Shown here piece after piece: positions 12,762 to 61,550 of a stretch of 64,000 nucleotides of DNA. Where the stretch lies: NCBI GenBank assembly GCA_903813345.2, contig CAIIXF020000012.1, forward strand, positions 28,966,684 through 29,030,683, read 5' to 3'. The translations under genes and the position numbers were made by a program. Numbering within the stretch: position 1 is the stretch's first letter; each line of letters begins with the position of its first letter. This stretch comes from Owenia fusiformis. Its lineage: Eukaryota > Annelida > Polychaeta > Sabellida > Oweniidae. The notes below the pieces were generated by a model. The model searched no databases and was not told the origin of the DNA. It worked only from the letters and a program-made list of their open reading frames with translations.

Positions 12762-15700
12762 TTAGACAGTCTTTCTACCAAGGATCATATCTGCTGCTTT
12801 CTCGGCAATCATGATAGTAGGAGCGTTAGTGTTACCAGACACAACAAACGGCATAATAGAGGCGTCAGCTACTCTCAGGTTCTTGATACCCTTTACCCTG
12901 AAAATTTTAACTATACGTCAGTAGTAAGTAAAAAGGGGATTTTAAATAATTTGAATACCGATCCCTATGAAGGGGGGGGGGGGGTAACAAAGGGTATACG
13001 CCGTTTCTTCTTAGTTTTATCTACTAATTATTCAGAAACGAGGTGGGGGACTTCACTAACATACGGAACTAGCATAAAAGAAATATCTCGTATGTACCTC
13101 AATTCGGGATCAACTACAGAGTTCTTGTCATTGTCAGGTCCCATTCTACAGGTTGATGTGGGGTGAAACAGAGTCCATGCATTTGCTCTAATGAAACACG
13201 ACCAATAGTCGTCACTGTTAAACGAATGCTCTTTACAATGCGGATGATGCGATTTCACAAGTTCAAATCCTCCCTTTTCGAATGCCTTTGTTTTGGCCAA
13301 CTGATCAACGATAACACGTATTCCTATAAACATTACAAAAGAGTGAGTTTGTGGGAGGTAATGGTGCTGATATTTATGTTTTTAAAAGCCTGATTAGTCG
13401 AAGAGACCAGGGCTTCGTTTTTTAACTGCCCATGGGCTATTGCATTGCATAATATATAGTCTTCTCCCTAGGTATCACGAAAAAGAACAATGAGCCCATG
13501 CATTGCAAATTACATGTTGGCACGTTTTCAAAACACAGTTCATCCAAGCACACCTAAACTTCTAATTACGCTGTGGCAACCTTGTCGGCTCCTCGCGAGT
13601 GTCAACTAATTCACTAGCACCGCGGGCATACAAAAATGCATGTACTGATATGCTTTCAAAGATGCTTTTGTATTTACCTGCTACTATGTGTTTAACATCT
13701 ATGGGGTCTTCAAAGAAATTAGGCTGTATCAGAGGGTGGTCAAAAGGATCTGTAGTTTGCAGCCTGACTGTTCCATTTGTGGCTGGGTGAAGAAGAGTTA
13801 CCAATAATGATGCGCCATATTTGTCATCATTGTCATTGTCGGAATACAAAGCGTCCCACACCTGTCAAATACAAATTATCACCACCTTGCGCTTGCCCGT
13901 AGCCAGGGGCAAGCGGAAGGTGATGATTATGATGACAATGACCCCCCCCTGGCCAAAAAATCTTTCAAAATCATGCAGTTTTTCATCATTCTGAGAACTT
14001 CTAAAGTTATTTTGGCCATTTTTGGACCAAAATTGTCACAAGTAAACCCCCCTGGAATTTTTCAAAAAGTGAACTCCCCTTGGCAAATCCTGGCTACGGG
14101 CCTGTTGCGAGCTGTTCTTGGGGTATTAGTAGAACTATTTTAGAAGGCTTATATTTTACATTACTTGGGCAATAGGTGGAGCCATGGTACCGAGTCATCG
14201 TGGCGGGCCGAAGATTTTACTATGTTGCCCTTTGAAATGAGGTTATTGGCAGACTTATATTATGTCTTAATTAAAGTGGAAGTTCTTAAATATCGTACGT
14301 TGTGAATATTTTCTCTTAGGTGCACATTTTGTTCCAGGTATTTTTTTTTATTGAAGATTGCTACAAAAGTGTCGATCTCTATCACTTATTCCTTATCAAC
14401 CGATGACTTAACTATGATACCTCGTCAGTATATCCAATGTTGTCCTTGTAATAGTCGGTGCCCGGATCGCTGCCCCATAACGTACAAAGTATGCTAAACT
14501 GTATGTAAGGAAAGTCGTGATGCTCCGGCTGATGAGGACTCTTCATGAAATATTGGAGGTTATTTATGGGATTCCTTTTTAATCCTTTATAAAATAGACG
14601 AACATGGCAATATGTTGAATTATATGTTTTGTTGTTATGTATATCAACTTTAACATCGGAACGGGTATAATACGGCCAAACAGACAAAATTGATCAATCA
14701 CTTTTAAACCATCATTTTTTAACACTATAAAACTATAAAAACAGCGTAGAAAGTCCGAAATCAAATCATTACGTAACCATTGCTTAGCCATTATATCCAC
14801 CGAAAAGATCATTTCACAAAGACAGTCAACCATTGGCTTCAACCATTGGCTGCAATGCAACCATTGACTTCAACCATTCCCATTACACTTTTTTCAATGG
14901 TTAAACAGTAATTTCTTTGCAATCATTTTTATTGAAGTTATGTTAATAATCAGATAATGTTTAAACCTTCCTCAAATATTTTTAACATTAGAATTGGTTT
15001 GATTTTAACCAGCAAGAGAAGCAATTTAGGTTTCTCTCAAGTAGAGTACAAAATAATACATGTTATATAGACCATCTACAGTATTGGTAAGCTGGGTATA
15101 TTTAGTCAATTCTTATTTAAATGAGTTGGCCATCAAAAACTACGTCAGCCGTTAGTTGAATTCGAGAATGCTACCTAAATAAAGACTGATGTTAATTCCA
15201 TGAAAATCGCTATACTCGATTGTTGTTTACGTCGTCTATAAAGCATTGGCATTTTCAATGGTTGCAAACCAGTCTGTATGACAATGGTCTTTAATCATTG
15301 CACAAATGAACAGTGATTATGTAATAGTCGGCGTTCAAAGTTGTTTTGATACGATAATATTCATGAATATATAAGGTATGACGTTTTGGAATATTTGGAA
15401 AGGTGTTTTAAAATGCTGTCCATGACAAACATGTCAGTTTAGAGCGTTCGTTTTTAGAAAATGGGGGCAGATTAAGGAGGGGGATGGGTGCGGAAACTTG
15501 ATACAAAATTGAATCTTTCAAGACAACGTTGTTAATAAGTTGAAAATGTGCCAGAATGTTTTTTTGTTTTGTGATCGATATATATCTGCTATTTTGACCA
15601 AACTCAAGCATAGGCTACCTGTTCCGAAAAATTTGTACTTGAAATATTCTTTGAGGCTTTGTGCTTCTGTATCCGTGTACGCATGCGCCTTTGTGTAGAA

Positions 15701-18700: not shown

Positions 18701-20349
18701 GTATTTTGTAAGTACATCTAGACTCGGCAAACACAACAGATTCACATCACAAATGAATTGTTTACAAGCCATGTTGTCCCGCAACAGAATTTTAATGAGG
18801 CTACGAAATATGATTTGCGAATTATTCTCGCACAGTTGGTGTCGTTACGGCATCCCAGCAACAGAACTGGTGCTGGTATTTTGTTAATTGTGCATCAGTT
18901 ATATGTTCAAATGTCCATGTGAGGTATGGCAAGTGATTTTAGACAGTCATATCTTTAACCACGAGTACTTTCTGAGCACAAATACAGTGGTTTTTATTAA
19001 AACAATATGTTTTCTTTCAAGTGAAGTCCCCATGATGATAAGAATATTAATCAAACTCGTTTAATAATTCGAGAAATTATGAACAGAGACCCCATGTCAA
19101 CAATTTTTCCAAAATGATTTTTCTAAAAGAGGATCTTTTTCTGATTTTTATTGCATGAAAAGATTATTCAACAAGGGGTCTAGTTTTGAAGACACAAAAT
19201 TTCGATGACCCAAATTATGCTAGCTGAAAACAATGGATAGCATGAGTTTTCCCTGGGAAAATAACACGGGATATGTGGTTTTTAACTTAATAGCGCATTT
19301 TAAACACCATCCCCATTTTAGGAATTGTTAATATAGTGTAGGAGAAACTTTTCACATGATTAAATTTAGAAAAATTTATCTAATTTATATTATTTCCATC
19401 ACAGGTTGCGAAATACATGTATTACCTGAGAGTGTAGGTGTATTACACAGCATTTGCCATATTGTCCTGTCGCGTATGTAATGAATGTACAAATGAATGT
19501 ACTGTGTGAATGCGATGCAAAAAGCGAAATTAAATGTTTTCATTTTTAAGCAAGAAAATGACAAAAAAACAGAAATAGCTCTTTAAAATTCAGTTCGTCT
19601 AATAACTGCTCTGTACTATTTAAAATGTTACTTTAGTTACTTTAGTATGATATATTATATTACACCAAGGGCGAACGTAATACCCGGGGGCACCCTAGCC
19701 AGAAGGCTACTCGTTCGGATGTCGTTTCGTTTCGTTCGGTACACGCTACACAGGTCCTAGGTATTAAATAAGCCCTTGATCATACCCTTGGCTTAGTGCT
19801 ACCTTGTCTTTCAAGCCACTACAGCAATGCTTCTGTGGAACAGTTCTGTACTCCCAGTCTATGATGGTCCTTTGGGGTTGTGCGGCCTCTGACGGAACAG
19901 GCATAGTGTGATGCCACTCGATACCAGCCTCTCACAGGAGGACACTCGTCCCCTCATCCTCCGAGAGTCTAGCGGCCAACACTGCACCTGCTGAACCCCC
20001 GCCAACTGTAAGTGGGGAAATCGTTATCAATAATAACGAGGCATTAATATGCAAAATGTCACCACCTGCAATTGGTTATAGACGCCGAACACAAAACGTC
20101 GAAGTTCAACCGCCACCACAAAAAGATTGGAGAGTAACAATATGTCACCACTTGTGTTGGTGACATAAACATGAGAGACTAATTGCGATTGGAGAAATTG
20201 ATGGACAGTCGACACTTACCAATTATATAATCATACTCATTCTCCAATACATCTTTTATCCTTGAACTTATTGGAACTTTTTCTTCCCGTACGAGTAGAT
20301 AGGCTATTGCAACTGCAGCTATTAAACACGCGTTTTGAAACGACAGCAT
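12762..20349 (-). CDS. GMC-family FAD oxidoreductase (choline/glucose dehydrogenase-like), 11 exons, one in-frame TGA
   Basis: Coding exons, 5' to 3': 20349-20220, 20005-19803, 18454-18265, 17563-17432, 16879-16755, 16482-16315, 15769-15619, 14584-14421, 13861-13678, 13323-13098 and 12897-12762. All splice sites are GT-AG and the phases join to exactly 603 codons. Residues 1-25 are hydrophobic, a signal or anchor. Then come VGGGSAG (44-50, FAD binding), [12 protein letters not shown] (117-128), [18 protein letters not shown] (291-308), HPTSTCRMG (536-544, catalytic His) and NTNAPTIM (580-587, second catalytic position), with a normal C terminus. Enzymes of this family oxidise alcohols, sugars or choline using FAD; the substrate cannot be told here. 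Codon 68, in VLLxEAG where the family usually has Leu, is TGA (19934-19932). It is therefore either a recent pseudogene, a null allele or a sequence error. Exon 8 has the weakest acceptor and least conserved start. Confidence 0.88.
13892..14104 (-). mobile_element. MITE-A copy in an intron of the GMC gene
   Basis: Full length in reverse: CTTGCCCGTAGCCAGGG, then TCTTTCAAAATCATGCAG, TTGTCACAAGT and CAAATCCTGGCTACGGGCC. TTGCG flanks both sides, supporting a 5-bp target duplication. It lies between exons 8 and 9. Confidence 0.8.
16117..16285 (-). repeat. Dispersed repeat, copy 2 of the inverted pair
   Basis: Reverse complement of 12542-12713 with moderate divergence, running from GTGTGAAAGAAATGATGG to CCTTTTACACCGG. 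It lies in the intron just downstream of the GSP-motif exon of the GMC gene. Confidence 0.65.
16960..17330. repeat. Minisatellite of CACAGTACTC / CATCACATTACTCACT units
   Basis: About a dozen copies of a roughly 27-bp unit mixing ACAGTACTC and CATCACATTACTCACT. Several long open frames arise from the repeat alone and are not genes. It lies in a GMC intron. Confidence 0.85.
17590..17936. repeat. Tandem duplication of about 174 bp in a GMC intron
   Basis: Two adjacent, almost identical blocks, each from ATAACTTTATCTATATATAA to TAAGAAGAGTTA, with TACCGGCGAATRGG and CAGTGGCCCTTGTCTC inside. Few differences, so a fairly young duplication. Confidence 0.85.
18071..18106. repeat. Perfect 36-bp palindrome
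   Basis: CCTGAGACTAACATAAAA is followed at once by its exact reverse complement, with no spacer. It lies in the GMC intron after exon 3. Confidence 0.9.
18905..19200 (+). repeat. Dispersed repeat, copy 1
   Basis: Shares order and wording with 45628-45870: TATGGCAAGTGATTTTAGAC, GAGTACTTTCTG, TTTTTATTAAAACAAT, GACCCCATGTCA and TTTTTATTGCATGAAAA. Ends not defined. No ORF common to both. Confidence 0.65.
20040..20180 (+). repeat. Dispersed repeat with CGCCGAAC units, copy 1
   Basis: Holds AATATGCAAAATGTCACCACCTG-like sequence, GACGCCGAACAC, AAGTTCAACCGCC, TTGGAGA, ACAATATGTCACCAC and GGTGACATAA. Relatives are at 34205-34335 and 34500-34575. It lies in GMC intron 1. Confidence 0.5.
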
Positions 20350-27400: not shown

Positions 27401-30400
27401 ATTACATTGACTATGCCTGCTTTCCTCTATTTTGAAGGGGTAGGGCACAATAACGTCATATTTAAATTACAAAATAGTGATTCATCATTATAAAAATTGT
27501 ATTACAATATTACACAAACCTTGGAAATATTCTTGGAATACTATTTTGAGCTGTTAAAGCTGTCACCTTTTGCTTGAAGCTACGAATGCAAATTAGACGA
27601 GACTTAAAATGTACATATTCAGATCAAAATTGAGACAAAAAGTGCAATATCTCTGGATTCAGTTGTTATAGATTGATGTATTGTGGCTTGTTAGCAAGGT
27701 CTTCTTATATATTTTATGGATATATCAGAATATCAAATATATTCAAGTTCACAAGGCTCTGATACAGCATTTTGATTGTGTGTGGCTGTATCCATGGTGA
27801 CCTTTAACTCACTCAGAAATGGGTTAAACCCCAAAATTGACTACTCTTAAGGACTCATAATGTTTTAGATGGTCCAAAGGAACATTTTGACAAAGGTTTC
27901 ATTGATGTACTCGAGATGTCATTTAAAACTAATTTAAGGGCATTTCAAAAAACGCCCCCACATCTACTTATTACAGGCCTCAAACCTTTTGTACTCGAGA
28001 TGTCTTATAAATGTTTGCTAGCTCCTAGAGTACCACGATCTATCTCATATGTCTCAAATGAAAATGTCCACTGACATCTAAAACTAATCAACAATTTTAA
28101 TATCATAATTTTAATGTGAATTTATATCTTCAGGTGGAATCAATGACTTAAAGTTCGATGTAAGTTTCAGAAGTAAGTATAATGAGAGGTCAGAGGTCAT
28201 GCTTCAATGAAAAATTAGCTATATAATTTAGACACATCCAATGACTGGAATTCAAGTTACCAAAAATTACATTTTTAACGAAAAATGAGTTATCAAAGTT
28301 TACACGTTTACGAAATATGGAAGTTATTTCGAATTCAGGAGCCATCTTGTCAAATAATCAATTCTTGAGCAGCGTCCTATGTCCATAAAGTAAAGTCTAT
28401 AATCTGAACCGAATCTGATAACTGGTATTTGAGTTATCAAAACTTATATATTTTTCGAAAAAATGGCGGGCATTTTGAAGACAAAACAGACAAAAAAATT
28501 CTTGAACAGATGTCCTCTTCTCATAAGAAACTAGCCTATTAAAGCTTGACAAAATCCGATTTCTGGCATTACAGTCATCAAAATCTACATTTTCCATTCA
28601 AAATGACGGCCATTTTGAATTTAGCTGCCATCTTTGAAAATCATTTACATCAACTTCGGATATTGCATGTATAAATCCCTATCTGATAACTTACTACAAA
28701 GAAATGCGGTCTATGGTCTATGTTATAACATGTTTTATCTGATTATTTTACTTTTCTTACGCGATTAGACGAAAAATGTATGTTAGAGTGTTTCAATTCT
28801 ATTTACAGGTTGTGCCGATGTTGAAATAGTTCTCGACCTATCATGTTCACTTTCGAAAAGAATGAAACAAAGGAGCCGGGATATTGCCATAGTTTTGGCC
28901 GGTGCCTTGACAACAAGCTTTGACCCTACTCTCAAAACCAAAAAAGTGCGAGTTGGAATCCTAATATATGGAGAAACAACAAAGCAGTTATTGGCGTTAG
29001 GTAATCGGTATTCTCCGAATTTCAGAATATTCTTGTATTCTCCGAATTTCCAAATATTCTTGCTCAGATACCAAATGGTATGGATATAATTAAAGGGACA
29101 AAGTGCGTAAATGAAGTCTCACTTTTGATCTTCATAGTATTTCCAATGGATTAATAAGTACCCGATCTTTCATTTGACACCAAAAATGTTCAAACAGACC
29201 ACATCAGAGTTGACACTAGATCATGAAAAAATATTTTTTTCATAAAAAGATGGCATTGTTGTTTGCATTAATTATCCATTCATTTTTGACAGGATTTTCA
29301 AGCATACGCCATCTTTTAATCCAAGAGTTATCTAAAATATACACTTTGTGAAAAGTGGTAATTCACTTTTTTCAATCTCTGAACTTCAAATGCTGTTTTC
29401 TATGCGAGTAATTTTTTTTCACTTCAGTATTATCCCAAATTAAAGTTTTTATCATATTTGATTGACTGTGTGAGTGACATGTCTCAAATAATATTTTGTC
29501 CTTTTTCCTTCAAAAATAGGCGCATTAATTAATAAGAATCCTGACCACTACCAATAAAAAGAAAAACGTTTGAAGACATCCAGATGTTAGTTAAATCTTC
29601 TCAAAATGATTTACATTTAAGGCCAGATTTTTCAAGGAGGCCATGGGGAAGAGGGTCCGCAAAACGTTTACGAACTCTCTCCATTTGACCCCATTGATAG
29701 AATAGCACATAAAGCAAATCCTCGGTTGTTTTAGATAACAAGAAAACCACCAATGAAGTTGTCAATTTACTTAGCAATATGAACTTGAAGAAAGAAGACA
29801 AGCTTTGCAGAACGATGACCCACTTAGCCTTGAAGGAGGTACAAACTATAATGTCCTCAACCAAGCGAAATAACACTGCACAACTTATACTGCTGATTAC
29901 TGATGGGCTTACATTCTTTCGTCGATACAGAAACAAGTTGTACAAAACAAGAAATGAACTGAAGAAAGATGGTGTGATTTTAAACGTCGTTTCAATGCCT
30001 CATAAGTATGTACTTATAATACTTATTAATTAATGTGGTAACATTTTAAATTTTAAATTCGAGGGTTGATCATAAAGTTCACATAATATCTCTCATTTTT
30101 TCTTGTTTTTGCAATATATCTTAATGAAATGTTCAGCCAAATATATTTAGCGTTACAGAGATATTTATTCAGAAATGGTTGTCATATTTGCCAAAAATCA
30201 AGAGCAGCAATGTACATTTTTACGTGACCAGTTTCGAAATGTACGAAATGATTTATTTTCTAATTCGCTGGGGTGCATGCGATTTCTGCCATTCTTCTTT
30301 GCTGACACAACTGGGCTCCCCGTTATTCGCTACCATGTGGCTAATTTTGGGAATCAATTTTATCAATTACTATAGTAATTAATTTCTGTATTTGAATCCC

Positions 30401-38400: not shown

Positions 38401-41400
38401 TTGAATACACGTAGATAAGTTATATTATTTCAAACAGTGTACAATATGCTTATTTATAAACTTTCAAACTTGAGCAATTTTGTTGGTCTATCTAGGTAAA
38501 AAAAATAACTTTTCATATTCTTTTAAATATTTATTTACCATTGAATTCTATGAAAACTGAAATTTAAAAATGCTTTTTCTCTGAACCATTTTTCTGTGTT
38601 TAATTTTTTGCTTATTTTGCTTAACTAAAATTTATTTGAACTTCACAAATTTTCAAACAAATAGTCTTTCGAAATCAAGTGCTTGAAATAAAATTGAAAA
38701 GTTCCATACAACATTATGATAACATTGGGTAAAGTCATAAGCCAAAGCGGTTTAAACTTTATATGGTGGCTTCAAATAAATCAACGAAATCGCAAGAAAA
38801 CAGAACATGCAGGGTGTCCAATAAATAAGGTGAATGATATTGTATCTTTCTTAATATTGCACCAATCTTGATGAAATCTTCAGAGTTTGTAGCCCAAATC
38901 TACTTACCCTTATTCTGTGAATTTAACGCATCTTCTATTTGATTGGCCAGAGTTGTGGTTGCTATAGCAACCGAAACAACAAAAATGGCGGGGCAAGTTT
39001 GTTTACGTCACAACTTTCCGAAACATATTTATTCTTTCTGATAGCTTAATCATACCCCCAAGTCTATTACTACCACAAATACAATATAAAAACAGTCCTA
39101 AAGTCCCATTGTTATGAAAATAAGCTATTCAACATAATGTCCATCTCTAGCTATACACTTCTTATGCCTATTCACCCACTCTCTAAACACACTTTCAAAC
39201 CCATTCTTGCCCATTTCAACTGAAGTCTTGCTGAGACATGTGTTCTGAGTTCACACACAGCTATGCTCACTAGTGAAACTATTAGGGCACTGGGGCTACC
39301 TCTACTTGCACACCCTCCATATTCCCCAGACCTTGCACCCAATGACTTTTACTTATATGCAGACCTCAAGCGTGACTTGTTTGGAAGCACTGATGAACTC
39401 AGATCACACGTCTTAGCAAGACTTCAGGAAATGGGCAAGAATGGGTTTCTAAGTGTGTTTAGAGAGTGGGTGAATAGGCATAAGAAGTGTATAGCTAGAG
39501 ATGGTCATTATGTTGAATAGCTTATTTTCATAACAATGGGACTTTAGGACTGTTTTTATATTGTATCTGTGGTAGTAATAGACCTGGGAGTATGAATAAA
39601 GCTATCAGAAAGAATAGATATGTTTTTGAAAGTTGTGACGTAAACAAACTTGACCCGCCTTTTTGTTGTTTCGGTTGCTATAGCAACCACAACTCTGGCC
39701 AATCAAATAGAAGACGCTTTAAATTCACAGAATAAAAGTAAAAAGGTTTGGGCTACAGTCTCTGAAAGTTTCATCAAGATTGGTGCAATATTCAGAAAGT
39801 TACAATATCTTTCACCTTATTTATTGGACACCCTGTATATTATATCTTTGATAATTCACTCTCTGATTTGATCAATTTGAAATTGTAAATATATTGGTCA
39901 CGCATCAAATAACATGTCATATCTTTTATTAAAGGTATGTATTTACTATATATAAGCCTATACATATTTAAAAGTGTCATACAAAGTGACTGATCATGAC
40001 ATGGCGTCGAAGTGTCATAAAAATATGAGCAATGTGGCATAACTTGTACATAACCCAGAGACATATAAAACCATAACTATTACGCTTTTTGAGTTATTTG
40101 TTTCTTGCTTCAAGATCCTTGACTCTTGTAACCAGTGCCTATGTAGGTGCTGCCCCCTGGACCTGTAGGTGCTGCCCCCTGGACCACCGGATACGGAAAG
40201 GGTTTTATTGATTTCTATAATGTGGGGACTAGCCAGCAATTTGAGAGAAAGTATCATAAATGACAATATTGTCGTATTATTTTCAGCTGGAAATAGCTTA
40301 AGGAAAGTGAACGAAGTAGACGGACGAGGGATCGATGAAGGAGAGTTTGATGGTAACTATATTTTTTAATTAATTAATTAATTACCATAGTCAAAGAATC
40401 TGCAATATATTCTATGATTAGACCAAAGGCGCTTTGTCATTGTTTTTATTTATTAACAAGTGTTTTGTTTGACGATTTTTATCATTCTATGAATATTGGT
40501 TTGAGCGCGGATTTTAAGATTTGACGAGTCTCTGGTTCGATCACTAAGTATGTCAGTTCATGTTCTCTCAAACCATTCTGATTTTAGAGGGATCCTCCTC
40601 CTTTAATGGTTTGCTGTTCGTGTTATATTTAAACCAAATATTTAGAGAACTCCTCGATCTATTTTCCAACAATCAAGCCTGTATTGTTAAATTACCACAA
40701 TAAGATACATTACATATTCATTTTCTGATGAGAGAATAAAACCATACATGATTAACGAGATGTGTCCATAATGTGTCCATAAACATCAGGCCTGTAGCCC
40801 CCCTTAGCCACAAAATCTTTCAAAATCATGCAGTTTTTTACTATTCTGACCACTTCTAGTGATTTTGGCCATTTTAGGACCAAAATTGTCACAAGTGAAC
40901 CCCCCCCCTGGAATCTTTCAAAAAGTGAACCGCTCCTTGGCAAATCCTGGCTACGGGTCTGAATATGATAAAGTATCTACTTTTTACAGACTTTCTATTG
41001 GGATTGGAAAAATACTTTATGTACACCCTGTACATTCTATTTATTGCAGTATGTGCCGACATTGAGATGATTCTCGATATATCGTGTTCCTTATCTCAGA
41101 GAATAAAGGAAAGATCACGCGAGATTGTTAAGAAGATAACCAGGTCACTATTGGAGGGATTTAGCCATGGAAACAACGCCGTGAGAATTGGACTCCTGAC
41201 CTACGGAGAACGTTACACCCATGAACTTTTCTTCAGTAAGTACATGTAACTCACAGGGGTAAAGCAGACCCGATGATGCAATGAGCTTGCTCGGCGGTAT
41301 CATGACTGTGTAACGGGGCTTAATGTATAAGTGAGCTCGGTGGTAGGTTCAAACAAAGCGGATCCTCAAAGCATGTGCGCATGGTATCATCGTGGCTTAA

Positions 41401-44141
41401 CACCCGTGTAACTGATGTTTGGGAATGCAGTAATACAAAACCATATTACTTTGTTGAGAAAACCACATTTTTGTTTTTGTTTTATCACGTTTTATATACA
41501 TTAGCAAACCGATTTCAAAATAACCCAGCGCAACTTTCACAACTTATTGTGCTTAGCAACTGTAAGAGGAGGGAAACCTCAAGAGCTTACAGATGACAGA
41601 CATAATTACGTCTCCTGCCTGCCATCTTCGTTTTCGAATACCAAAGGAGTTTTAATCGATGTTAGCATATTCCTTACATCTTTCCTTATCTTGATGTAAA
41701 ATAGCAAGCTATGATACGTCAGAAATTAACACAATATTATGCGAAGCGTTTTCAAAAAAAATTGAGTCCGCCATTTTTTCGTCATTTGACCAATCAGCAA
41801 CGATTTGTCATCTCTATGTGAACTTTCCATTGACGGAAGATATGTCTTCTCTGAACCTAGAGTATGCCCCCTCTTTGCCTAGCTAAGATATTTAGACCTT
41901 TGGTTATAATTGAGTGTACTACCCTTTTGCAAAAGGAAAGGCTCTTTTGATAACGCATATCCAAACAGAATGTAGAAGGATCACCCAATCTGGTTGGTAA
42001 TTGCGATTTGAGAGACGATCCTGCCCTCTATCTAAGCCACATTACTTTTATTGATTATTAAATTATAATTAGACCATAAAAGCATTTTGCGATATTCAAT
42101 TCAGAGTATGGTTTTTATTTCCTCCTCCGTCCATTTATTCGTTCGTCTGTGCAGGACTAACTCAAATACTGATCAACAGATTTGATTTATAAAAAATAGT
42201 AGGCTGATGCCTCGTGGGCATAGAACCTCTACTTGAGAACAAATTTTCAATATGGCCGCTGGATTCCAAATGGCCGCCATTTTTCCTAAAAATATAATAT
42301 CCTTCCTCCTTTTATCATTGTTCATGATATTTTCTTGGACTAAGTACCATAAAGGGAGACGGTACTCTTGCGTGGGAGCATTTATCTCAATTCCTCCTCA
42401 GCAGACTGCATCATTATGCCAATCGCCAAGTGTCAGATTGCATATCACTGACAATGACTGGGAAAACATTTTCTAAACAGTTCAATTGAAAATATAAAAA
42501 TGGTACAGAGTTGTTGTTTCTCCAGGAGGCTTTTGCGTTTAAAGGTCACATGATAACATGTTTTGAATATCCGTGATCCGAGATTTTAGTAATGGCTAAC
42601 AATGAAATATTTTTCAATATCTTTTAGTGTATCAGGTTGGTGTCTCTCTTTTGCCATCCCTCCTTGAAATTAAAAAAATCTTTCATAGATGAAACAATAT
42701 AAAGAATTAAAGTCAATGAGTAATTTGCATGTTATTTTTTAGATAATACCGCCTCTATCGACGAAACCATGGATATAATAGACAAAATTAACCTGAGAAG
42801 ATCAGAGGGTGACATATGTAGGACATATACCCACAAGGCATTAGAGCAGGCTGTTGAGGTTTTCAAAACTTCCAAACATACAACAAAGATCATACATTTA
42901 TACACTGACGGCTTGACGGTTCTCAGAAGATACAGAGAGGATTTATATAAAATCAAGGATAAACTCAGAGAGGATGGCGTGATTATTAACGTCATTCAAC
43001 AGCCACATAGGTAAGGATACACTCTCCTTTTAATTTCCTATTAATGTTCATGTTAACATCTAGGTAAGGATACACCCTCCTTTTGATTTAATTTCGGTAC
43101 ATGTTGACCCCTAATCCAGGTAAGGATACACTCTCCTTTTAATCTCTCATTAATGTACATGTTAACCCCTCGAGCTCATCCAGGTAAGGATAAACTCTCC
43201 TTTTAATTTCCAATTAATGTACAATGCTAACCCCTCATCCAGGTAAGGATAAACTCTCCTTTTAATCTCCCATTTATGTACACGTTGACCTCATCCAAGT
43301 AAGGATACAAAATTATTTTGATTTCCCGTTCATGTTAACCCCTGATCTAGCTAGCTAAGGATACACACCTACATGATCTTGATTGTGATTAAATATTAAA
43401 ATTATGATTCTTATCAGAGTAAATGAACTTTTAAAGTGTCAAATGAGATTTAGTTTAACCTTTTTCGGAAATCTTGAAAATATTTGAAAATTGAATAAAG
43501 GTAAATATCTGTGCAAATCAAAGATATTTTGATGGAAAATGTACATGATATTTTTTATTGAAATATGTTGCTATTTTTATCAAAAAATGTTATGGCAGTG
43601 CCCTAGCTAATCACAACCAATATGTCAATAAGATCATGTAGGTGTGTCCTTAACTAGATCAGGGGTTAACATGAACATTAATGGGAAAACAAAAGGAGAG
43701 TGTATTCTTACCTGGATGAGGGGTCAACTTGTACATTAATGGGAAATTAAAAGGAGTGTATCCTTACCTGGATGAGGGGTCAACTTGTACATAAATGGAA
43801 GATTAAAAGGAGAGTGAATCCTCACCTGGATGAGGGGTCAAGATGTACATAAATGGGAGATTAAAAGGAGTGTATCCTTACCTGAATTCACTGTTCAACA
43901 TTTTGACAAAGTCACAAGAGTACCATATTTCATATTTGCTATTTCAAACTCCTAAGAGTCTTACGTTTTACGTTTCCATGACAACCTTGCTCTTTCCAGG
44001 AAGGGGAAATACGAGGAAGAAGAATATATTGAACTGCCCCACTCCGCTGATCACCTCTTCAAAGGAACTGATCCCGATATCGCTAACTTTCTCGTCGATC
44101 GAATCTTATTTGACGCTCCTTGTTTCGATAATATAAAATAA
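35412..44141 (+). CDS. Secreted von Willebrand factor A domain protein, second of the tandem pair (vWA-B)
   Basis: Five exons: 35412-35556, 40287-40352, 41050-41235, 42743-43010 and 44000-44141 (TAA 44139-44141); 807 nt, 268 residues. Phases 1, 1, 1, 2 and the 142-nt last exon match vWA-A exactly, so the genes are tandem duplicates. Signal peptide about 1-20 (MIYRFFNIFVLVWSIQSKPV). vWA from about 72 to 215 with a complete metal site: DISCS (80-84), T160/T162 and D188 in LYTDG. VRIGLLTYGE and RTYTHKALEQAVEVF again resemble factor B-like vWA. The tail, YEEEEYIELPHSADHLF then GTDPDIANFL and DAPC, is shared with vWA-A. Exon 2 (residues 49-70, acidic) is unrelated in sequence to the short exon of vWA-A. 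Intron 1 is about 4.7 kb and repeat-filled; intron 4 holds donor-like repeats (separate entry). Role unknown; extracellular binding is inferred. Confidence 0.82.
36376..36498 (+). mobile_element. MITE-A, right half only
   Basis: AAATCACTTAACAAGTGCTC, AAAACTGCATGATTTTGAAA and a final CTGACTACAGGCCTG. The left half is missing. Confidence 0.65.
36499..37520. other. Intronic stretch of vWA-B with nothing recognisable
   Basis: AT-rich sequence with no exon, clear repeat or RNA gene seen. CAGGGTGTTCAGTAAATGAGG at about 37243 resembles one end of the mariner derivative at 38810 and may be a lone end. Confidence 0.4.
37522..37712. mobile_element. MITE with AAATATGTTCTCCCC ends
   Basis: Left AAATATGTTCTCCCCCTTA, right AAGGGGAGAACATATTT, inverted ends about 190 bp apart. 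No ORF. In intron 1 of vWA-B. Confidence 0.6.
38957..38972. promoter_or_regulatory. X-box-like palindrome GGTTGCTATAGCAACC (left mariner arm)
   Basis: A perfect 16-bp palindrome fitting the RFX X-box pattern; its twin is at 39673-39688 in the right arm. Carried by the transposon. Confidence 0.4.
39263..39520 (+). pseudogene. Mariner transposase C-terminal fragment
   Basis: An 85-codon open frame, LLAHPPYSPDLAPNDFYLYA, then LKRDLFGS, EWVNRHKKCI and GHYVE at the stop, is the typical mariner C terminus including the third catalytic Asp (PYSPDLAPND). The first two catalytic Asp and the DNA-binding domain are absent, so it cannot transpose itself. Confidence 0.88.
40142..40185 (-). promoter_or_regulatory. 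Two exact 22-bp repeats, each with a CTCF-like core
   Basis: TGTAGGTGCTGCCCCCTGG plus ACC occurs twice in a row. On the minus strand each reads CCAGGGGGCAGCACC, near the CTCF core. About 100 bp upstream of exon 2 of vWA-B. Confidence 0.35.
40787..40962 (-). mobile_element. MITE-A copy
   Basis: CAGGCCTGTAGCC to CAAATCCTGGCTACGGGTCTG in reverse order with all inner landmarks. AACAT and AATAT at the flanks suggest a 5-bp duplication. It ends about 90 bp before exon 3 of vWA-B. Confidence 0.78.
43009..43380 (+). repeat. Tandem repeat seeded on the exon-4 splice donor of vWA-B
   Basis: GTAAGGATA recurs at 43011 (the real donor), 43064, 43120, 43184, 43243 and 43299, with a worn copy near 43356; spacing is 53-64 bp. 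Units read GTAAGGATACACTCTCCTTT, then TAATTTCC, ATTAATGTACATGTTAACCC and CATCCAG. Most copies keep AG before GTAAGG, so each is a good donor. Confidence 0.88.
43640..43885 (-). repeat. Inverted array matching the donor repeats
   Basis: Four to five units of CTTACCTGGATGAGGGGTCA, then TGTACATTAATGGG and TTAAAAGGAGAGTG: the reverse complement of the array at 43009-43380. The two arrays lie in the same intron 260 bp apart and could pair as a long hairpin in the pre-mRNA. Confidence 0.85.
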
Positions 44142-54845: not shown

Positions 54846-55436
54846 TAGTACATTGATGTTATACTTTACAATCCCCTGTCGTTCATACTGAACATCATGT
54901 TGGACAAGCCAAAAATGTCTAATTGCCTATACAGGCTGTGTGAAATTGCTTGCAATCTTAAACAACTATCTTCCCAAAAAACTATCCTACATCTATCTGT
55001 ATGACACTTAGAACCTTAAATAATCCTTATTTTTGTTATCTTTTTTTTCTTGTCAGGCAAACTACAATCATTTGTGTATTCTTTTCCCCAAGCTAACCTA
55101 ACTACAATGTATATCCTTATTTATGTGGTATATAGTATGTTTCTAACATTAATTTAGTATATTTGAACAATTCCTAAATGTAACAAACAATTGGTGTTTT
55201 AGCATGATGGTGTTACCTAAAGTGAACATGAACACTTCAAACCAAATGTTTCAGACGTTGGGAACAAAATCAATGTTCATAATGACCCGAGATTTTGACA
55301 ATAATCTAAGGTCACTGTGAAAACCAATAATGATTACTCCCGTATCCATCTCTTTTGCGAGTTTCGTTTTTGGTGCAATGTTCCACATGTGTGTAAAATT
55401 GCATTGTTTCAGTTTTCTAATGATAATGTTGCAACA

Positions 55437-56805
55437 CAATACGCAATTGACCTTCACAATGATCTCAAGTGGATTATAACACAAGAGACCAAATGAAAAC
55501 CAACAGAGAATTGCTTGTCGTCAATTCTAAGTTTCACTTTTTAATGTTATTGTTGCAACACAATACGCAATTGACCTTCACAATGATCTCAAGTGGATTA
55601 TAACACAAGAGACCAAATGAAAACCAACAGAGAATTGCTTGTCGTCAATTCTAAGTTTCACTGTTTAATGTTAATGTTGCAACACAATACGCAATTGACC
55701 TTCACAATGATCTCAAGTGGATTATAACACAAGAGACTAAATGAAAACCAACAGAGAATTGCTTGTTGTCAATTCTAAGTTTCACTTTTTAATGTTAATG
55801 TTGCAACACAATACACAATTGACCTTCACAATGATCTCAAGTGGATTATAACACAAGAGACTAAATGAAAACCAACAGAGAATTGCTTGTTGTCAATTCT
55901 AAGTTTCACTTTTTAATGTTAATGTTGCAACACAATACGCAATTGACCTTCACAATGATCTCAAGTGGATTATAACACAAGAGACTAAATGAAAACCAAC
56001 AGAGAATTGCTTGTTGTCAATTCTAAGTTTCACTTTTTAATGTTAATGTTGCAACACAATACGCAATTGACCTTCACAATGATCTCAAGTGGATTATAAC
56101 ACAAGAGACCAAATGAAAACCAACAGAGAATTGCTTGTCATCAATTCAAAGTTTCACTTTTTAATGTTATTGTTGCAACACAATACGCAATTGACCTTCA
56201 CAATGATCTCAAGTGGATTATAACACAAGAGACTAAATGAAAACCAACAGAGAATTGCCTGTTGTCAATTCTAAGTTTCACTTTTTAATGTTATTGTTGC
56301 AACACAATACGCAATTGACCTTCACAATGATCTCAAGTGGATTATAACACAAGAGACTAAATGAAAACCAACAGAGAATTGCCTGTTGTCAATTCTAAGT
56401 TTCACTTTTTAATGTTAATGTTGCAACACAATACGCAATTGACCTTCACAATGATCTCAAGTGGATTATAACACAAGAGACTAAATGAAAACCAACAGAG
56501 AATTGCTTGTTGTCAATTCTAAGTTTCACTTTTTAATGTTAATGTTGCAACACAATACGCAATTGACCTTCACAATGATCTCAAGTGGATTATAACACAA
56601 GAGACTAAATGAAAACCAACAGAGAATTGCTTGTTGTCAATTCTAAGTTTCACTTTTTAATGTTAATGTTGCAACACAATACGCAATTGATCTTCACAAT
56701 GATCTCAAGTGGATTATAACACAAGAGACTAAATGAAAACCAACAGAGAATTGCTTGTTGTCAATTCTAAGTTTCACTTTTTAATGTTATTGTTGCAACA
56801 CAATA
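55437..56805 (+). repeat. 124-bp satellite, eleven units with no change of period
   Basis: CAATAC starts at 55437 and again every 124 bp to 56801, without a single net insertion or deletion. Units differ by only a few bases (GCTTGTYGTC, GCCTGTTGTC). Each contains ACACAATACGCAATTGACC, CTCAAGTGGATTATAACACA and AACCAACAGAGAATTGC. A first worn unit precedes it from about 55360. It ends about 200 bp before the promoter of the small gene at 57120. Confidence 0.92.
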
Positions 56806-56990
56806 CTTTGATTTTGACATAATTTTTTATTTGAGTATTGAAATGAATTTTTTGTACACAAACATAGTCTGTTCAATTTGGCAAAATTGCACTCACTCCA
56901 ATAAATAATAAAAAATGTAACTCAAAAATATTATGAATTTAGAATGAAACAAATATATGTTATAAATAATTGGTTTATGAAATGATTGTA

Positions 56991-57083
56991 ATTGGTCAGT
57001 ATGCTTATCCAATCACATTGTGACTCACCATATCTAAATTAGCCAATGAGATACAAGAGCATCATGATAATTTGCTATAAATA
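56991..57083 (+). promoter_or_regulatory. CCAAT/TATA promoter of the 80-residue gene
   Basis: CCAAT boxes at 56991-56995 (as ATTGG), 57009-57013 and 57043-57047, then TATAAATA at 57076-57083, 44 bp before the ATG. The layout resembles replication-dependent histone promoters. Confidence 0.7.
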
Positions 57084-57119
57084 CAGTTGTAAAGAAAAGA
57101 ATAATCATTAATAATAGCT

Positions 57120-57362
57120 ATGGATGCTCTAGAGTATTTGGCTGATCTACAACATGCACTGCTTGAAGAGAGGAGCAGATGTAAGGCTGACCTTGGTATT
57201 CTTGAAGGACAAGCAAACCTGATTGTCAACAACAGCCTTCACCTAACTCACGAAGCCACACTAATTCTGCAGGAAATCTATTCTCTAGAAGAACTTATAG
57301 AGAAGCTAACAACTTCAGTTGGCATGGTTGAAGATGCCATGTTAGACCTGATGATGCGATAA
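57120..57362 (+). CDS. Intronless 80-residue helical protein with a histone-type mRNA 3' end
   Basis: Single open frame, ATG 57120, TAA 57360-57362. I do not recognise the protein. It is acidic, begins MDALEYLADLQHALLEERSR, and its leucines and isoleucines fall in near-heptad spacing (LADLQHALLEE, LILQEIYSLEELIEKL). It is probably helical, perhaps a coiled-coil or a small helical bundle. It has no signal peptide, no membrane segment and no histone-fold signature. The start is set by the TATA box 44 bp upstream; the implied leader is only about 12-15 nt. The reading frame is trusted because a promoter precedes it and a perfect histone stem-loop follows 31 nt after the stop. It shares this architecture with the SGNH gene 2.7 kb downstream on the same strand. 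Expression in S phase or in eggs and early embryos is inferred. Confidence 0.75.
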   Translation: MDALEYLADLQHALLEERSRCKADLGILEGQANLIVNNSLHLTHEATLILQEIYSLEELIEKLTTSVGMVEDAMLDLMMR

Positions 57363-57393
57363 TGGTTCCATAAGCACAAAGAAGAAAAAGAAC

Positions 57394-57430
57394 GGTCCTT
57401 CTAAGGACCACCAAATATTCATAAAAGAGA
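57394..57430 (+). terminator. Histone mRNA 3' stem-loop and downstream element
   Basis: AAC GGTCCTTCTAAGGACC ACCA at 57394-57409 fits the consensus GGYYYTTHTHARRRCC at every position: a 6-bp stem and 4-nt loop. After 13 nt comes AAAAGAGA (57423-57430), like the purine-rich element read by U7 snRNA. In animals this pair directs cleavage without polyadenylation. Confidence 0.88.
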
Positions 57431-59990
57431 ATTAGCTTAATGAATGCGTTGTTAACTGTATGAATGTGTTGTATGAATCCGCCTTTTGTTTAAACATGGT
57501 AAAATGTATTTATTTCACAAGTACAGTACAAAAATTGTTAAAATTTGAATTACCAACATTATGACAACATTGTGTCTTCAGCGTATCTACCAACCTAGAA
57601 GTAGCATTTCCAAAGAAAATTAACCTTCAAAGTTGCTAAACACTAATCTGAGACCACATTTCTAGAAATAATTTCTAATATGAAATCACTTTGACTGAAT
57701 TTCTAATGATGAAAATTCAAAATATTTTCCTCACACCTAATTATAAAAAACACTGTATTTAAGCCTTCAAAGTGAAAGATCCAACTGTGTTACATCTATG
57801 CCCTTCTACATTGTGGCCTCTAACATATATCTGGAATTTATCTTTTCGAGAAAAAAATTGACAATATTTGTAACAATTACTTTGAAACTAGAGTGATATA
57901 CAGCCTATCATCATTTTTTAAAAATACATTAACATGCAAAGTGTCATCACCTGCAAAATCCTTACATACTATGAAAAATTTATGTTTTAAGTCTTAATGT
58001 TCCAATTGTTGATCCAAAAACTTTGTTCAGAAAGTGGTACGTAAATTGGTAGGAAATTCAAATATTTTTGGTAAGGTGGACAACTAATGTATTTTTAATC
58101 ATGTAAACAGTACATTAAAGGCATAGTCTTACTTTTTTCTATTACGAAGATTATTTTTCCCAGCACATGATACATGTCATTGTTGTGTCTTAGACTGTGC
58201 CATATTGTAAGTTTGTTTATATTTTTACGATAATTAAAAATTACTAAAAAAATGTCTCAAATTGTTTGAAGTCAAACTTTGTATAGTGCCCTAAGGGTTA
58301 AGGTATCATTAACTAATTAATATATAATCTCATAATATTTACAAGGCAAAATTAGTCTCTTTAATTAAAGCTTCATTGGTGCTCACTTATCTCAAACCCT
58401 CATTAGATAATCTTCTATATAAACATTCATGTCAAATGTATAAAACAAACTAATTACAATAAAATATAAAGTAAAAAATTTCATAGAAAGTAAACAGATT
58501 CAGCATGAGGCGTGGAGATTATCTTTGATGCTGTCGCCTGGGTAGAATAGTATTACTTCAAAGTGGTGCCTTGTATTAAATTAGCATCATAATTGCTTTA
58601 ATTCTAAGTTACATTTACTTTGATAGCTTCATGGCTCAACTGTTAAATATTTTTTCCAAATACACAATTGCCACTTTTGTAGTCATTTTCTGACTCACAT
58701 GATAAAAAACTATATAACTCTTTTTAACCTGTGTTTGAATTTAGCAGTAACAGACATTTCACAATTTGGTCACACTGTTGATTGCCAGGACTCGGTACAT
58801 CTCCTCCCCTGATAAGGGAACTTCTAAAATGATGAATGAAGCTTAATAAATAGATATTACTACTTATTTTTCATTGTTTTGATTGTGCCAGACTGATTTG
58901 GAAATGTAAGTCACAGGGAATGATCTGCATAAAATATCGTAAAAATCAAAGTTAGTTTTGTTGAAATGTAATCAAGACTAAGAGCTCTTTATAAAATTCT
59001 TTATCTGCAATTAAGCTGTTTTAACCCATATGCTTATATGCACACAATCAATTAATTTCACTTATATTATTTGATATGGTGAATTTCATTGTCTATATCT
59101 CTCTTTCAAAATCAACCTAAATTGTCTCTGTAGTCAATAACCCAGATGCGAGTAGAAATAATCTTGATTTACGTCATTAAAAATTCAGTTAAAGTAATAT
59201 CATATTTGAAATCGACATGTAAAATTACATCTAGAAATGTGGTTTTAAAAAGTGTTTATTGACTTTGAAAAATTAATTTTCTTTGAAAATGTGACTTCTA
59301 GCTCGGGGAGATTCCCCATAGACCCCATGCTATAAAATCACAAAAAATGAAATATCTTTTCTTTTAGTGGACAGATAATATTTTGCTTTACTGGACATAT
59401 TTTCATTAGTATAAGTATCAGACATATAAGGGTTATATGAAAATTGAGCCACTTAAATTGATAATATTCAAGTTTAAGGGAACTTTCTTATACACCTGCC
59501 ATGTTAATTGACCCGAATCAGCCACCTGGTGGTGAAATTGGTAACTACCTACTCGCATTTGGGTAATTGAATATGTTTACTTATGTTGAGCTCATAAAAT
59601 CATCATGTTTTTTAAAATGATTTCTAATTTCTATTGTAATTATAATATTTTTTTGATATTTTATATACCTTATAAGAGTTTTGTGACGGGTGATAAGAAC
59701 TGGTGGATTTAACTGTTTTGACAACTTCCCTTAAAAAACAGACTACAAAGTAACAAATATCCTTTGATCAAAGAAGCAGCAGTGTTTATATCCTTGTTTA
59801 CTTAACTATTTTAGAATATCCTCTCAAAAAAAACGAAACAATAAAAGCAATCATATGTGTCACTTTGATGGTATTTTAAACATTTCACTGCATACTTTGA
59901 TCATGAAACAACAATGTATTTAATCTTTTTTAATAATTTTAAGGCAATTAAATGGATCCTTGATGCCTCCGAAAACCTTTTTTTTAAATT
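57431..59990. other. Spacer between the two histone-end genes
   Basis: AT-rich, no credible ORF, repeat or RNA gene seen. GACTCGGTACATCTCCTCCC near 58789 and GCCACCTGGTGGTGAAATTG near 59520 are local GC-richer patches without an assigned role. Confidence 0.5.
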
Positions 59991-59992
59991 GA

Positions 59993-60035
59993 CCAATCAC
60001 TGTTGTCCAATATATTGTCATTTTGATATAAAAAG
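59993..60035 (+). promoter_or_regulatory. CCAAT/TATA promoter of the SGNH gene
   Basis: CCAAT at 59993-59997 and 60007-60011, then TATAAAAAG at 60027-60035. The TATA box lies only 21 bp before the first ATG (60048), too close for that ATG to be in the mRNA if transcription starts 25-30 bp below TATA, but 45 bp before the second (60072). Confidence 0.7.
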
Positions 60036-60071
60036 AGACTTTAGAACATGCATAAATCACAACTGTCAGTT

Positions 60072-60713
60072 ATGGTTCAGGGTACACAAGTAAGCATTGT
60101 TGTAGTAGCAAGTTCACATGGGAGGGGTATACATAGACCCATTGTGACCAGTGATTTCTGGTTGAAGGAGCGAATGAAATTATCAGTCTATTTTGAACCG
60201 GGATTGACGTTCAAAAGATATCAAGAAACTAGAAGCCACAAGAAGACTTTTGATGAGATGCTACAACTGATCAAAATAAAGGAGAAGCCTGATATTGTCA
60301 TCATCCATGTTGGTGGAAATGATATCGCAGCCAAACATGGAGGCAGGCGGTTGAATCGCAGCTCACAGCTTATTCAACTTGTGTTGAAGAATGTCAGACG
60401 AACGATGGAACTTTTCCCCAAAGCTACTATTTGCTTTTCATCAATTCTACCAAGAGTGACGACAAACAAAACAGTTTGGCAATCCCAGACCATTAAATAT
60501 GTTAACAATAAGCTGAAAGGAGAGATATCCTCAATGGGAAACGCTTGTTTCATCTACCATACAGTGAACTTCGCATCTGCGAAGGGTGGTACAATTCCGT
60601 TTGACGACGTGTTGCGGCAAGATGGCCTCCACAAATCTGTAAAAGGCAATAGATTGTTTGCCGATAATATTGTTCGTTCATGCAGAGGCATCATGTATGA
60701 TAACGGACATTGA
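60072..60713 (+). CDS. Intronless SGNH-fold hydrolase with a histone-type mRNA 3' end
   Basis: Single open frame to TGA 60711-60713. I choose ATG 60072 (213 residues) over 60048 because it restores the TATA-to-ATG spacing of the sister gene. Numbered from 60072, the SGNH blocks are: I, VVVASSHGRG with Ser15 aligned to the serine of GDS; III, HVGGND with Asn83; V, DGLH with Asp184 and His187. The catalytic Ser-Asp-His set is complete. Length fits a one-domain GDSL/SGNH esterase. The family hydrolyses esters of lipids, sugars or proteins; the substrate is unknown. No signal peptide, so probably intracellular. Similar domains also occur in ORFs of some retroelements and in multicopy invertebrate families, so an origin from such a source is possible, but no other element part is near. 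A perfect histone stem-loop follows 28 nt after the stop. Confidence 0.85.
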   Translation: MVQGTQVSIVVVASSHGRGIHRPIVTSDFWLKERMKLSVYFEPGLTFKRYQETRSHKKTFDEMLQLIKIKEKPDIVIIHVGGNDIAAKHGGRRLNRSSQLIQLVLKNVRRTMELFPKATICFSSILPRVTTNKTVWQSQTIKYVNNKLKGEISSMGNACFIYHTVNFASAKGGTIPFDDVLRQDGLHKSVKGNRLFADNIVRSCRGIMYDNGH

Positions 60714-60741
60714 TGCATCATACCTGGCTCAGAACCCAAAC

Positions 60742-60779
60742 GGCCCTTCTCAGGGCCACCTATTTATTCCAAAAGAGAA
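60742..60779 (+). terminator. Histone mRNA 3' stem-loop and downstream element
   Basis: AAC GGCCCTTCTCAGGGCC ACC, stem-loop at 60742-60757, matches the metazoan histone consensus at every position. After 13 nt comes AAAAGAGAA (60771-60779), the same word and spacing as in the gene at 57120. No AATAAA lies between the stop and this signal. Confidence 0.9.
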
Positions 60780-60784
60780 ATTAT

Positions 60785-61550
60785 GAATTCAGGTTATAAG
60801 GTTGTTAGTGTGTGAGTATGTATGTTGTTTTTGGGAAAATATTTAAAAATAATAAAAATACATGGTTGCGGCCTCCATAAAGTCTTTTCAAAATAAACTA
60901 ACATGAATTTTGTTGCACCTATTTTAAGTAATTTCTAAAAGTCCTCATGCAGAATTTGAAAATATGTTTTTTTACTCATTTACTTAAAGAATTTTCAAAA
61001 ATATTTGTGGTAAAAAGTAACTTCATTGATAAGATTGAACAATGGACATACTAATTCCATCAGAAATCTAATGCGACCCGTATATGTTTTGCATATGAAA
61101 AAAATCTGCACCCTAATTGACTCAGGGTGCAAAGTATGTAGTACTTCTTTTAATGTAAACAATATCTATAACATCATATTTTAAAATAATGCAAAATGCC
61201 ATTCAATTATCAAATTAACAGCATATTTGATATTCACATTTTTAATGATACCATATTAATGGTTAAAGGATTCCAAAAAGAAAATCCATATTTTATAATA
61301 AATTCTAATCCTCCCCATTGCATGCTTGATCCAATCAACATTTTTATGTGTACCCTTTGAGACAGTAATTGTTATCTTAAAAGTTTGAATTAACATTTAC
61401 TAGGCCATGATCATTCAATTAACACCACACATTTTTGTTTTTTTGCATGATAATTTGTAAAATCTTTGGCAAATCATGGTGCAGGGATCAAAATATATTT
61501 TGAAAAGACTTAACCTCCCCTCACAGCCGCCCGTTTCCACACCACATATA
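60785..61550. other. Flank of the SGNH gene
   Basis: AT-rich with no gene or clear repeat seen up to the next mobile element. Confidence 0.5.

Follow-up and report, generated by a model that had tools for sequence, protein, structure and literature searches.

Two intronless non-histone genes with histone-type 3' end signals in a 64-kb stretch of Owenia fusiformis DNA

Introduction

Can genes that do not encode histones carry the complete set of 3' end signals by which replication-dependent histone mRNAs are formed? This question is raised by a 64,000-nucleotide stretch of DNA from the annelid Owenia fusiformis (contig CAIIXF020000012.1; hereafter the window), in which two intronless open reading frames (ORFs) on the plus strand, referred to here as gene A and gene B, are each followed by a histone-type stem-loop and a candidate histone downstream element (HDE). 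In the literature that treats such 3' ends, histone mRNAs are called the sole metazoan mRNAs known to be of this type, and no histone-type 3' end on a gene outside the histones is described in the titles, abstract openings and passages covered of open-licence PubMed Central articles, although a printed precedent may exist. The reading preferred here, to which a probability of about three in four is assigned, is that genes A and B are two real intronless non-histone genes of the replication-dependent-histone type, the mRNAs of which would be cut with the participation of the stem-loop-binding protein (SLBP) and the U7 small nuclear ribonucleoprotein (U7 snRNP) and would remain non-polyadenylated.

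If this reading is correct, a way of ending mRNAs that has been thought exclusive to histones would have been taken up by other genes, and two different genes with the full signal set would demonstrate that the pathway can be recruited outside the histone families. Such genes would also make it possible to examine directly, apart from any histone function, what role the histone 3' end plays for a message, and would bear on the question of why this type of 3' end has stayed restricted elsewhere.

Histone-Type 3' Ends of the Two Genes

The 3' end signals, their spacing, the two ORFs and the protein family of gene B are established. When the 64-kb window was scanned with cmscan, RF00032, the Rfam family of the histone 3' untranslated region (UTR) stem-loop, with a gathering cut-off of 34 bits, was the sole family above its gathering score, with two matches, one behind gene B (60737-60782, 40.1 bits, E 2.6e-8) and one behind gene A (57389-57435, 36.8 bits, E 4.2e-7). 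The stem-loops proper, both on the plus strand, are GGTCCTTCTAAGGACC with the loop UCUA at 57394-57409 for gene A and GGCCCTTCTCAGGGCC with the loop UCUC at 60742-60757 for gene B, and these are the only two matches to the stem-loop consensus GGYYCTTYNNARRRCC in the window. A mean of 0.01 matches to the consensus was obtained in 100 dinucleotide shuffles, none of which contained two, and a single match was found in 6 Mb of third-order Markov sequence with both strands searched, corresponding to about 0.01 expected per window. With the Rfam search relaxed to E 5, no third RF00032 copy appeared among the 30 matches listed; the bantam and other microRNA matches and the two snoRNA matches of this lax search lie below their gathering scores and were disregarded.

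Both hairpins fold as previously described. The 26-nt piece of gene A has a folding energy of -9.4 kcal/mol, equalled by 2 of 200 shuffles, and that of gene B has -11.4 kcal/mol, equalled by none of 200, while the longer 52-nt pieces of the two genes were each equalled by 4 of 200 shuffles. Pattern search, RF00032 scores above the cut-off and folding together confirm the stem-loops that a preliminary description of this DNA had placed at 57394 and 60742. The same description had reported two paired positions differing between the stems, which is wrong: one base pair differs (the third, U-A in gene A and C-G in gene B), amounting to two nucleotides, in addition to the last base of the loop. Since the search consensus allows either version, the single differing pair speaks only weakly for selection, and the proposal that compensatory change argues for selection is unsupported as it was worded.

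Downstream of each stem, the sequence AAAAGAGA, which contains the purine core AAAGAG, forms the candidate HDE on the plus strand, at 57423-57430 in gene A and at 60771-60778 in gene B. The spacer between stem and AAAAGAGA is exactly 13 nt in both genes, and the distances from stop codon to stem are 31 nt in gene A and 28 nt in gene B, all as previously described. AAAAGAGA occurs eight times in the window when both strands are counted, the two candidate HDEs being two of the eight. In mouse H2a substrates, according to portions of PMC7026596, AAAGAG is the purine core of the HDE and pairs with CUCUUU of U7 snRNA, and the sequence ACCCA precedes the cut. A purine-rich downstream element with a U7-pairing core at a fixed distance is thus present in both genes, with the mouse core as the reference, which may not be that of the host. 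ACC follows directly 3' of each stem, within ACCAA (57410-57414) in gene A and ACCTA (60758-60762) in gene B, both on the plus strand; by analogy with the mouse substrates, the cut would fall after these motifs, at 57414 and 60762, approximately 5 nt past the respective stems.

Coding Evidence and Protein Identity

ORF A (57120-57362) encodes 80 amino acids, a length that is uninformative alone because an ORF of 80 amino acids was present in 48% of 300 simulated stretches of 7.2 kb. Its codon-position bias is more telling: among 1777 spurious ORFs simulated at 70-95 amino acids, none reached its chi-square value of 27.6, nor did any of the 764 background windows taken locally. In the 64 kb as a whole, about 1 in 2057 windows reached it, the place of ORF A itself included. 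The G+C content of ORF A is 42%, compared with 24-29% in its longer flanks and 34.7% in the window as a whole, and 62 of the 1777 simulated ORFs reach 42%.

The product of gene A is acidic (pI 4.4) and is predicted to form a single continuous helix from residue 3 to residue 79 (pLDDT 97), so modelled probably a coiled coil; a confident single-helix model of this sort says little. No match to protein A was found in Pfam, PHROGs or the sequences of the Protein Data Bank (PDB), the last searched at E up to 10, and an assignment as cobaltochelatase was rejected, the NCBIfam match being weak (E 0.12). In these searches, protein A falls into no known family.

ORF B (60072-60713) encodes 213 amino acids, and an ORF of that length was present in none of the 300 simulated 7.2-kb stretches. 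The protein matches the SGNH/GDSL hydrolase family PF00657 of Pfam with 33.7 bits against a cut-off of 23.6 (E 5.4e-8, with the 221-amino-acid form as the query), which sustains its previous identification as an SGNH hydrolase; the score against the sister model PF13472 is 26.9 bits, below the cut-off of 32.9. The motifs GGND (Asn83) and DGLH (Asp184 and His187) are aligned with the PDB entry 5b5l, and the catalytic serine, picked by eye and located outside that alignment, is presumably Ser15 in SSHGRG. No signal peptide is evident by eye. The structural model of protein B is poor (pLDDT 45.8), so its best fold matches, platelet-activating-factor (PAF) acetylhydrolase and esterases, back the SGNH assignment reached from the sequence and go no further. 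In PHROGs, protein B matches a family of unknown function (E 2.9e-5), and no match was found in NCBIfam.

With both the hairpins and the ORFs described, the explanation that chance hairpins lie beside chance ORFs can be weighed. The window holds 35 ORFs that begin with ATG and span at least 70 amino acids, genes A and B included, and the simulations produce a frame as long as ORF A in about half of the stretches. Such a coincidence is nonetheless hardly credible, as it would have to supply two stem-loops where about 0.01 are expected, AAAAGAGA at an equal distance on the same strand about 30 nt past a stop codon in both cases, and a codon bias in ORF A that none of the simulated ORFs attains.

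Neither protein belongs to a histone family as judged by Pfam at E up to 1, and the pI of 4.4 counts against histone identity for protein A. A tblastn search of the window with four core histone sequences detected no histone coding sequence and no histone gene within the 64 kb, in which genes A and B do not cluster with histone genes; the lone match at E up to 1 is one of H3 at 19803 (E 0.76), and none falls at ORF A or ORF B. The description of the genes as non-histone and intronless with complete histone-type 3' ends is therefore supported, with coding evidence for both ORFs.

A 41-nt element, 57391-57431 in gene A and 60739-60779 in gene B, is 76% identical between them, and among the eight direct-repeat families in 56807-61500 it alone links gene A with gene B. 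When both gene regions were compared with the window by blastn (E 0.01), no part of one gene paired with the other, a search that would miss short or weak similarity, since the 41-nt element went unreported as well. From these comparisons, genes A and B do not look like one gene recently copied twice; this part of the preliminary description holds in that the 41-nt element is the one link among these repeat families, whereas the argument drawn there from the difference between the stems rests on one pair. The occurrence of two different ORFs in the same signal frame, linked among the direct-repeat families by the 3' element alone, is counted in favor of the preferred reading. The frame of signals, as far as the sequence allows a view, could have been gained from histone genes or could have evolved in genes A and B themselves.

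Promoter Layout

Histone genes typically have promoters in which CCAAT boxes are combined with a TATA box, and the two genes resemble each other in this respect, a feature missing from the preliminary description. Upstream of gene A, on the plus strand, CCAAT-type boxes (56969-57047) comprise ATTGG at 56969 and 56991 and CCAAT at 57009 and 57043, followed by the TATA box TATAAA at 57076-57081, 44 nt before the ATG at 57120; the nearest CCAAT starts 33 nt upstream of the TATA box. Gene B has CCAAT boxes at 59993 and 60007 (59993-60011, plus strand), starting 34 and 20 nt upstream of the TATA box TATAAA at 60027-60032 on the same strand, which precedes the ATG at 60072 by 45 nt. The layout is thus alike, with CCAAT boxes followed by TATAAA 44 or 45 nt before the likely start codons. 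Four CCAAT or ATTGG boxes within the 150 bp before the TATA box, as in gene A, or more, are found in 0.5% of the 150-bp windows of the 64 kb, while at least two, as in gene B, are found in 5.3%, which is weak if taken alone. A further copy of AAAAGAGA, at 60031-60038, shares bases with the TATA box of gene B (TATAAAAAGAGAC), which is probably a coincidence.

In ORF B, an in-frame ATG at 60048 precedes the chosen start codon and lies only 21 nt past the start of TATAAA. TATA promoters usually start the transcript farther downstream than this, so the transcript probably begins past the ATG at 60048. In both genes, TATAAA and the stem flank the ORF tightly, which points to intronless genes with a TATA promoter and short UTRs, there being no room for introns.

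A promoter and a 3' end that are both histone-like would also be expected of histone gene shells, in which duplicated or scattered histone genes had lost their coding part or had it replaced, while their promoters and 3' ends persisted passively and would be of no use to the ORFs now found there. Histone genes do occur outside clusters in bivalves, for example the H1 orphon genes of Mytilus, as stated in a portion of PMC6210712. The shell explanation is nevertheless unlikely: the tblastn search with the four core histones revealed no trace of a histone beyond the insignificant H3 match, the ORFs fill the space from TATA box to stem with short UTRs and show either coding bias or a protein family, and the event would be needed twice.

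Proposed Route of mRNA Formation and Points Weighing against It

Promoter use, cutting, the absence of a poly(A) tail and the timing of expression are what we infer from this arrangement. Under the preferred reading, each CCAAT plus TATA promoter would give rise to a short unspliced pre-mRNA with a very short 5' UTR. SLBP would bind the stem-loop about 30 nt past the ORF, and U7 snRNP would pair with AAAAGAGA through U7 snRNA, upon which the pre-mRNA would be cleaved by U7 snRNP with CPSF73 between the stem-loop and AAAAGAGA, some 5 nt past the stem. The resulting mRNAs, lacking a poly(A) tail, would be translated with SLBP, would accumulate with DNA replication or in eggs and embryos, and would yield a small acidic coiled-coil-like protein from gene A and an SGNH esterase from gene B. 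Messages of this type follow DNA replication in their rise and fall, and eggs can store them. A broader proposal, in which this animal, and perhaps its clade, possesses a genome-wide set of non-histone genes with the full histone gene plan, promoter and SLBP/U7 3' end alike, and with poly(A)-less mRNAs that, alongside histone mRNA, would be produced and degraded as DNA replicates or be stored in eggs, is evenly poised between true and false.

The likeness to replication-dependent animal histone genes covers the absence of introns, CCAAT boxes (a known feature of histone genes) with a TATA box, short UTRs, a 16-nt stem-loop about 30 nt past the stop codon, the ACC flank and the AAAGAG element at a fixed distance. 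The difference lies in the products, a helical acidic protein of 80 residues in one case and an SGNH hydrolase in the other, and in the lack of any histone gene found in the window. In Hydractinia, the replication-dependent histone genes are described in PMC5011920 as intronless, with short UTRs, predicted TATA boxes, the stem-loop and a purine-rich HDE, a plan that genes A and B share. Compared with the SGNH/GDSL hydrolases, protein B shares a PF00657 score above the cut-off, the GGND and DGLH motifs and PAF acetylhydrolase as its nearest fold match. SGNH/GDSL hydrolases are not known to have histone-type 3' ends.

Several observations weigh against the preferred reading. The match of the HDE was made to the elements of other animals. 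In the clam Lucina pectinata, the histone mRNAs have the stem-loop, yet purine-rich elements are mentioned, in a portion of PMC6210712, for some genes only and at differing positions, which suggests that the HDE varies among molluscs. The codon bias of ORF B is modest, since 1 in 650 local windows attains it, as do 1.7% of 2044 windows across the 64 kb and 5 of the 78 ORFs with at least 120 amino acids obtained by simulation, so the case for this ORF rests on the Pfam match. In the promoter region, 18 of the 280 TATAWA sites are preceded by a CCAAT box within 60 nt, the spacing ranging from 5 to 60 nt, and the parallel for gene B hinges on choosing the ATG at 60072 over that at 60048. Because CCAAT precedes these 18 TATAWA sites at varied spacing, the promoter parallel is modest evidence, gaining some weight from its position ahead of these two ORFs and their 3' ends.

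The remaining adverse observation concerns polyadenylation. AATAAA occurs 137, 178 and 583 nt past the stop codon of gene B, so that a polyadenylated form of its mRNA is possible, with the first of these (60851-60856, plus strand) as a possible back-up signal. This would suit a gene with dual ends, whose mRNA would be polyadenylated in most cells and would end at the stem-loop during S phase alone, an explanation that overlaps the preferred one in that the histone-type end is used. Dual ends are reported for H2AC18 and H2A.X (in parts of PMC9756948 and PMC7807067, respectively), and bdelloid H2A variants with both signals are mentioned in part of PMC2642717. Gene B resembles these variant genes in combining a stem-loop with a downstream AATAAA and differs from them in that they encode histones. 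Gene A speaks against dual ends, since AATAAA is absent from the 1038 nt examined past its stop codon and the first ATTAAA is 751 nt away. Overall, dual ends appear rather unlikely as the account of both genes, and mRNAs ended in the histone manner continue to be preferred.

Possible Mobile-Element Origin and Repeats around the Genes

SGNH/esterase domains occur in ORF1 of L2/CR1 long interspersed elements (LINEs), which raises the question of whether the two genes belong to a mobile element or an endogenous virus that uses the histone mRNA processing of its host. An ORF1-encoded protein, PDB 4c1b_A, matches protein B weakly (E 0.023 for the whole chain, with no stretch significant alone), and repeats are found nearby, including weak matches of 20-35 nt (73-80%) flanking a gene. 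Neither ORF, however, has a second copy in the window, the next tblastn matches, at E 0.88 for ORF A and E 0.082 for ORF B, each being interrupted by stop codons. As to the linked ORF2 with reverse transcriptase that accompanies a LINE ORF1, the 3.3 kb between gene B and the end of the window contain no ATG-initiated ORF of at least 81 amino acids, a result of ORF listing and not of a profile search in all frames. There are no strong terminal repeats around the genes, the flanking repeats being weak and A+T-rich. Viral contigs gave no match to the DNA patterns and no confirmed relative of either protein. A mobile-element origin is rendered unlikely by the lack of second copies in the window, by flanking repeats that are only weak and by the absence of such an ORF between gene B and the end of the window, and the explanation as a whole, virus included, is very unlikely.

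The scans of other contigs can be reported briefly. In viral contigs, both the pattern of stem-loop plus HDE and that of the stem-loop with its flanks had 0 matches, and short peptide patterns retrieved 1 stretch for protein B and 24 stretches for protein A, none of which was confirmed as a relative. In bacterial contigs, 15 pattern matches to protein B were likewise unconfirmed, and two stem-loop matches, L001 and L002, had no Rfam hit and were taken as chance, the surroundings of L001 resembling, by eye, G+C-rich bacterial coding DNA.

Two repeat structures adjoin the genes. A tandem array at 55406-56806, consisting of 11.3 copies of a 124-bp unit with 98% matches, ends about 310 bp before ORF A, and in several of its copies bantam microRNA matches below the threshold occur on the minus strand, probably by chance. 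Between genes A and B, both of which lie outside it, is an inverted repeat resembling a fold-back element, with arms at 57590-57727 and 59156-59306, pieces of which are 81-91% complementary and about 1.4-1.6 kb apart.

Other Features of the Window

Farther away, the palindrome GGTTGCTATAGCAACC stands at both ends of a 0.73-kb stretch, 38957-39688, with similar inverted flanks. The ORF at 39263-39520 within it, which has no Pfam match at E 0.01, resembles, by eye, a mariner transposase. Ten ORFs were scanned for domains. Among them, a gene piece at 13031-13333 (minus strand) has a GMC oxidoreductase domain (E 2.4e-14), and one at 40965-41246 is von Willebrand A-like, its E-value of 2e-4 narrowly missing the Pfam cut-off. 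Together with the histone-type elements, both pieces are in keeping with an animal genome. Two ORF pieces, 29779-30033 (LITDGLTFFRRYRN) and 42769-43014 (LYTDGLTVLRRYRE), are alike and, judged by eye, are probably exons from von Willebrand A-type genes that arose by duplication, a reading with which the von Willebrand A-like stretch at 40965-41246 fits.

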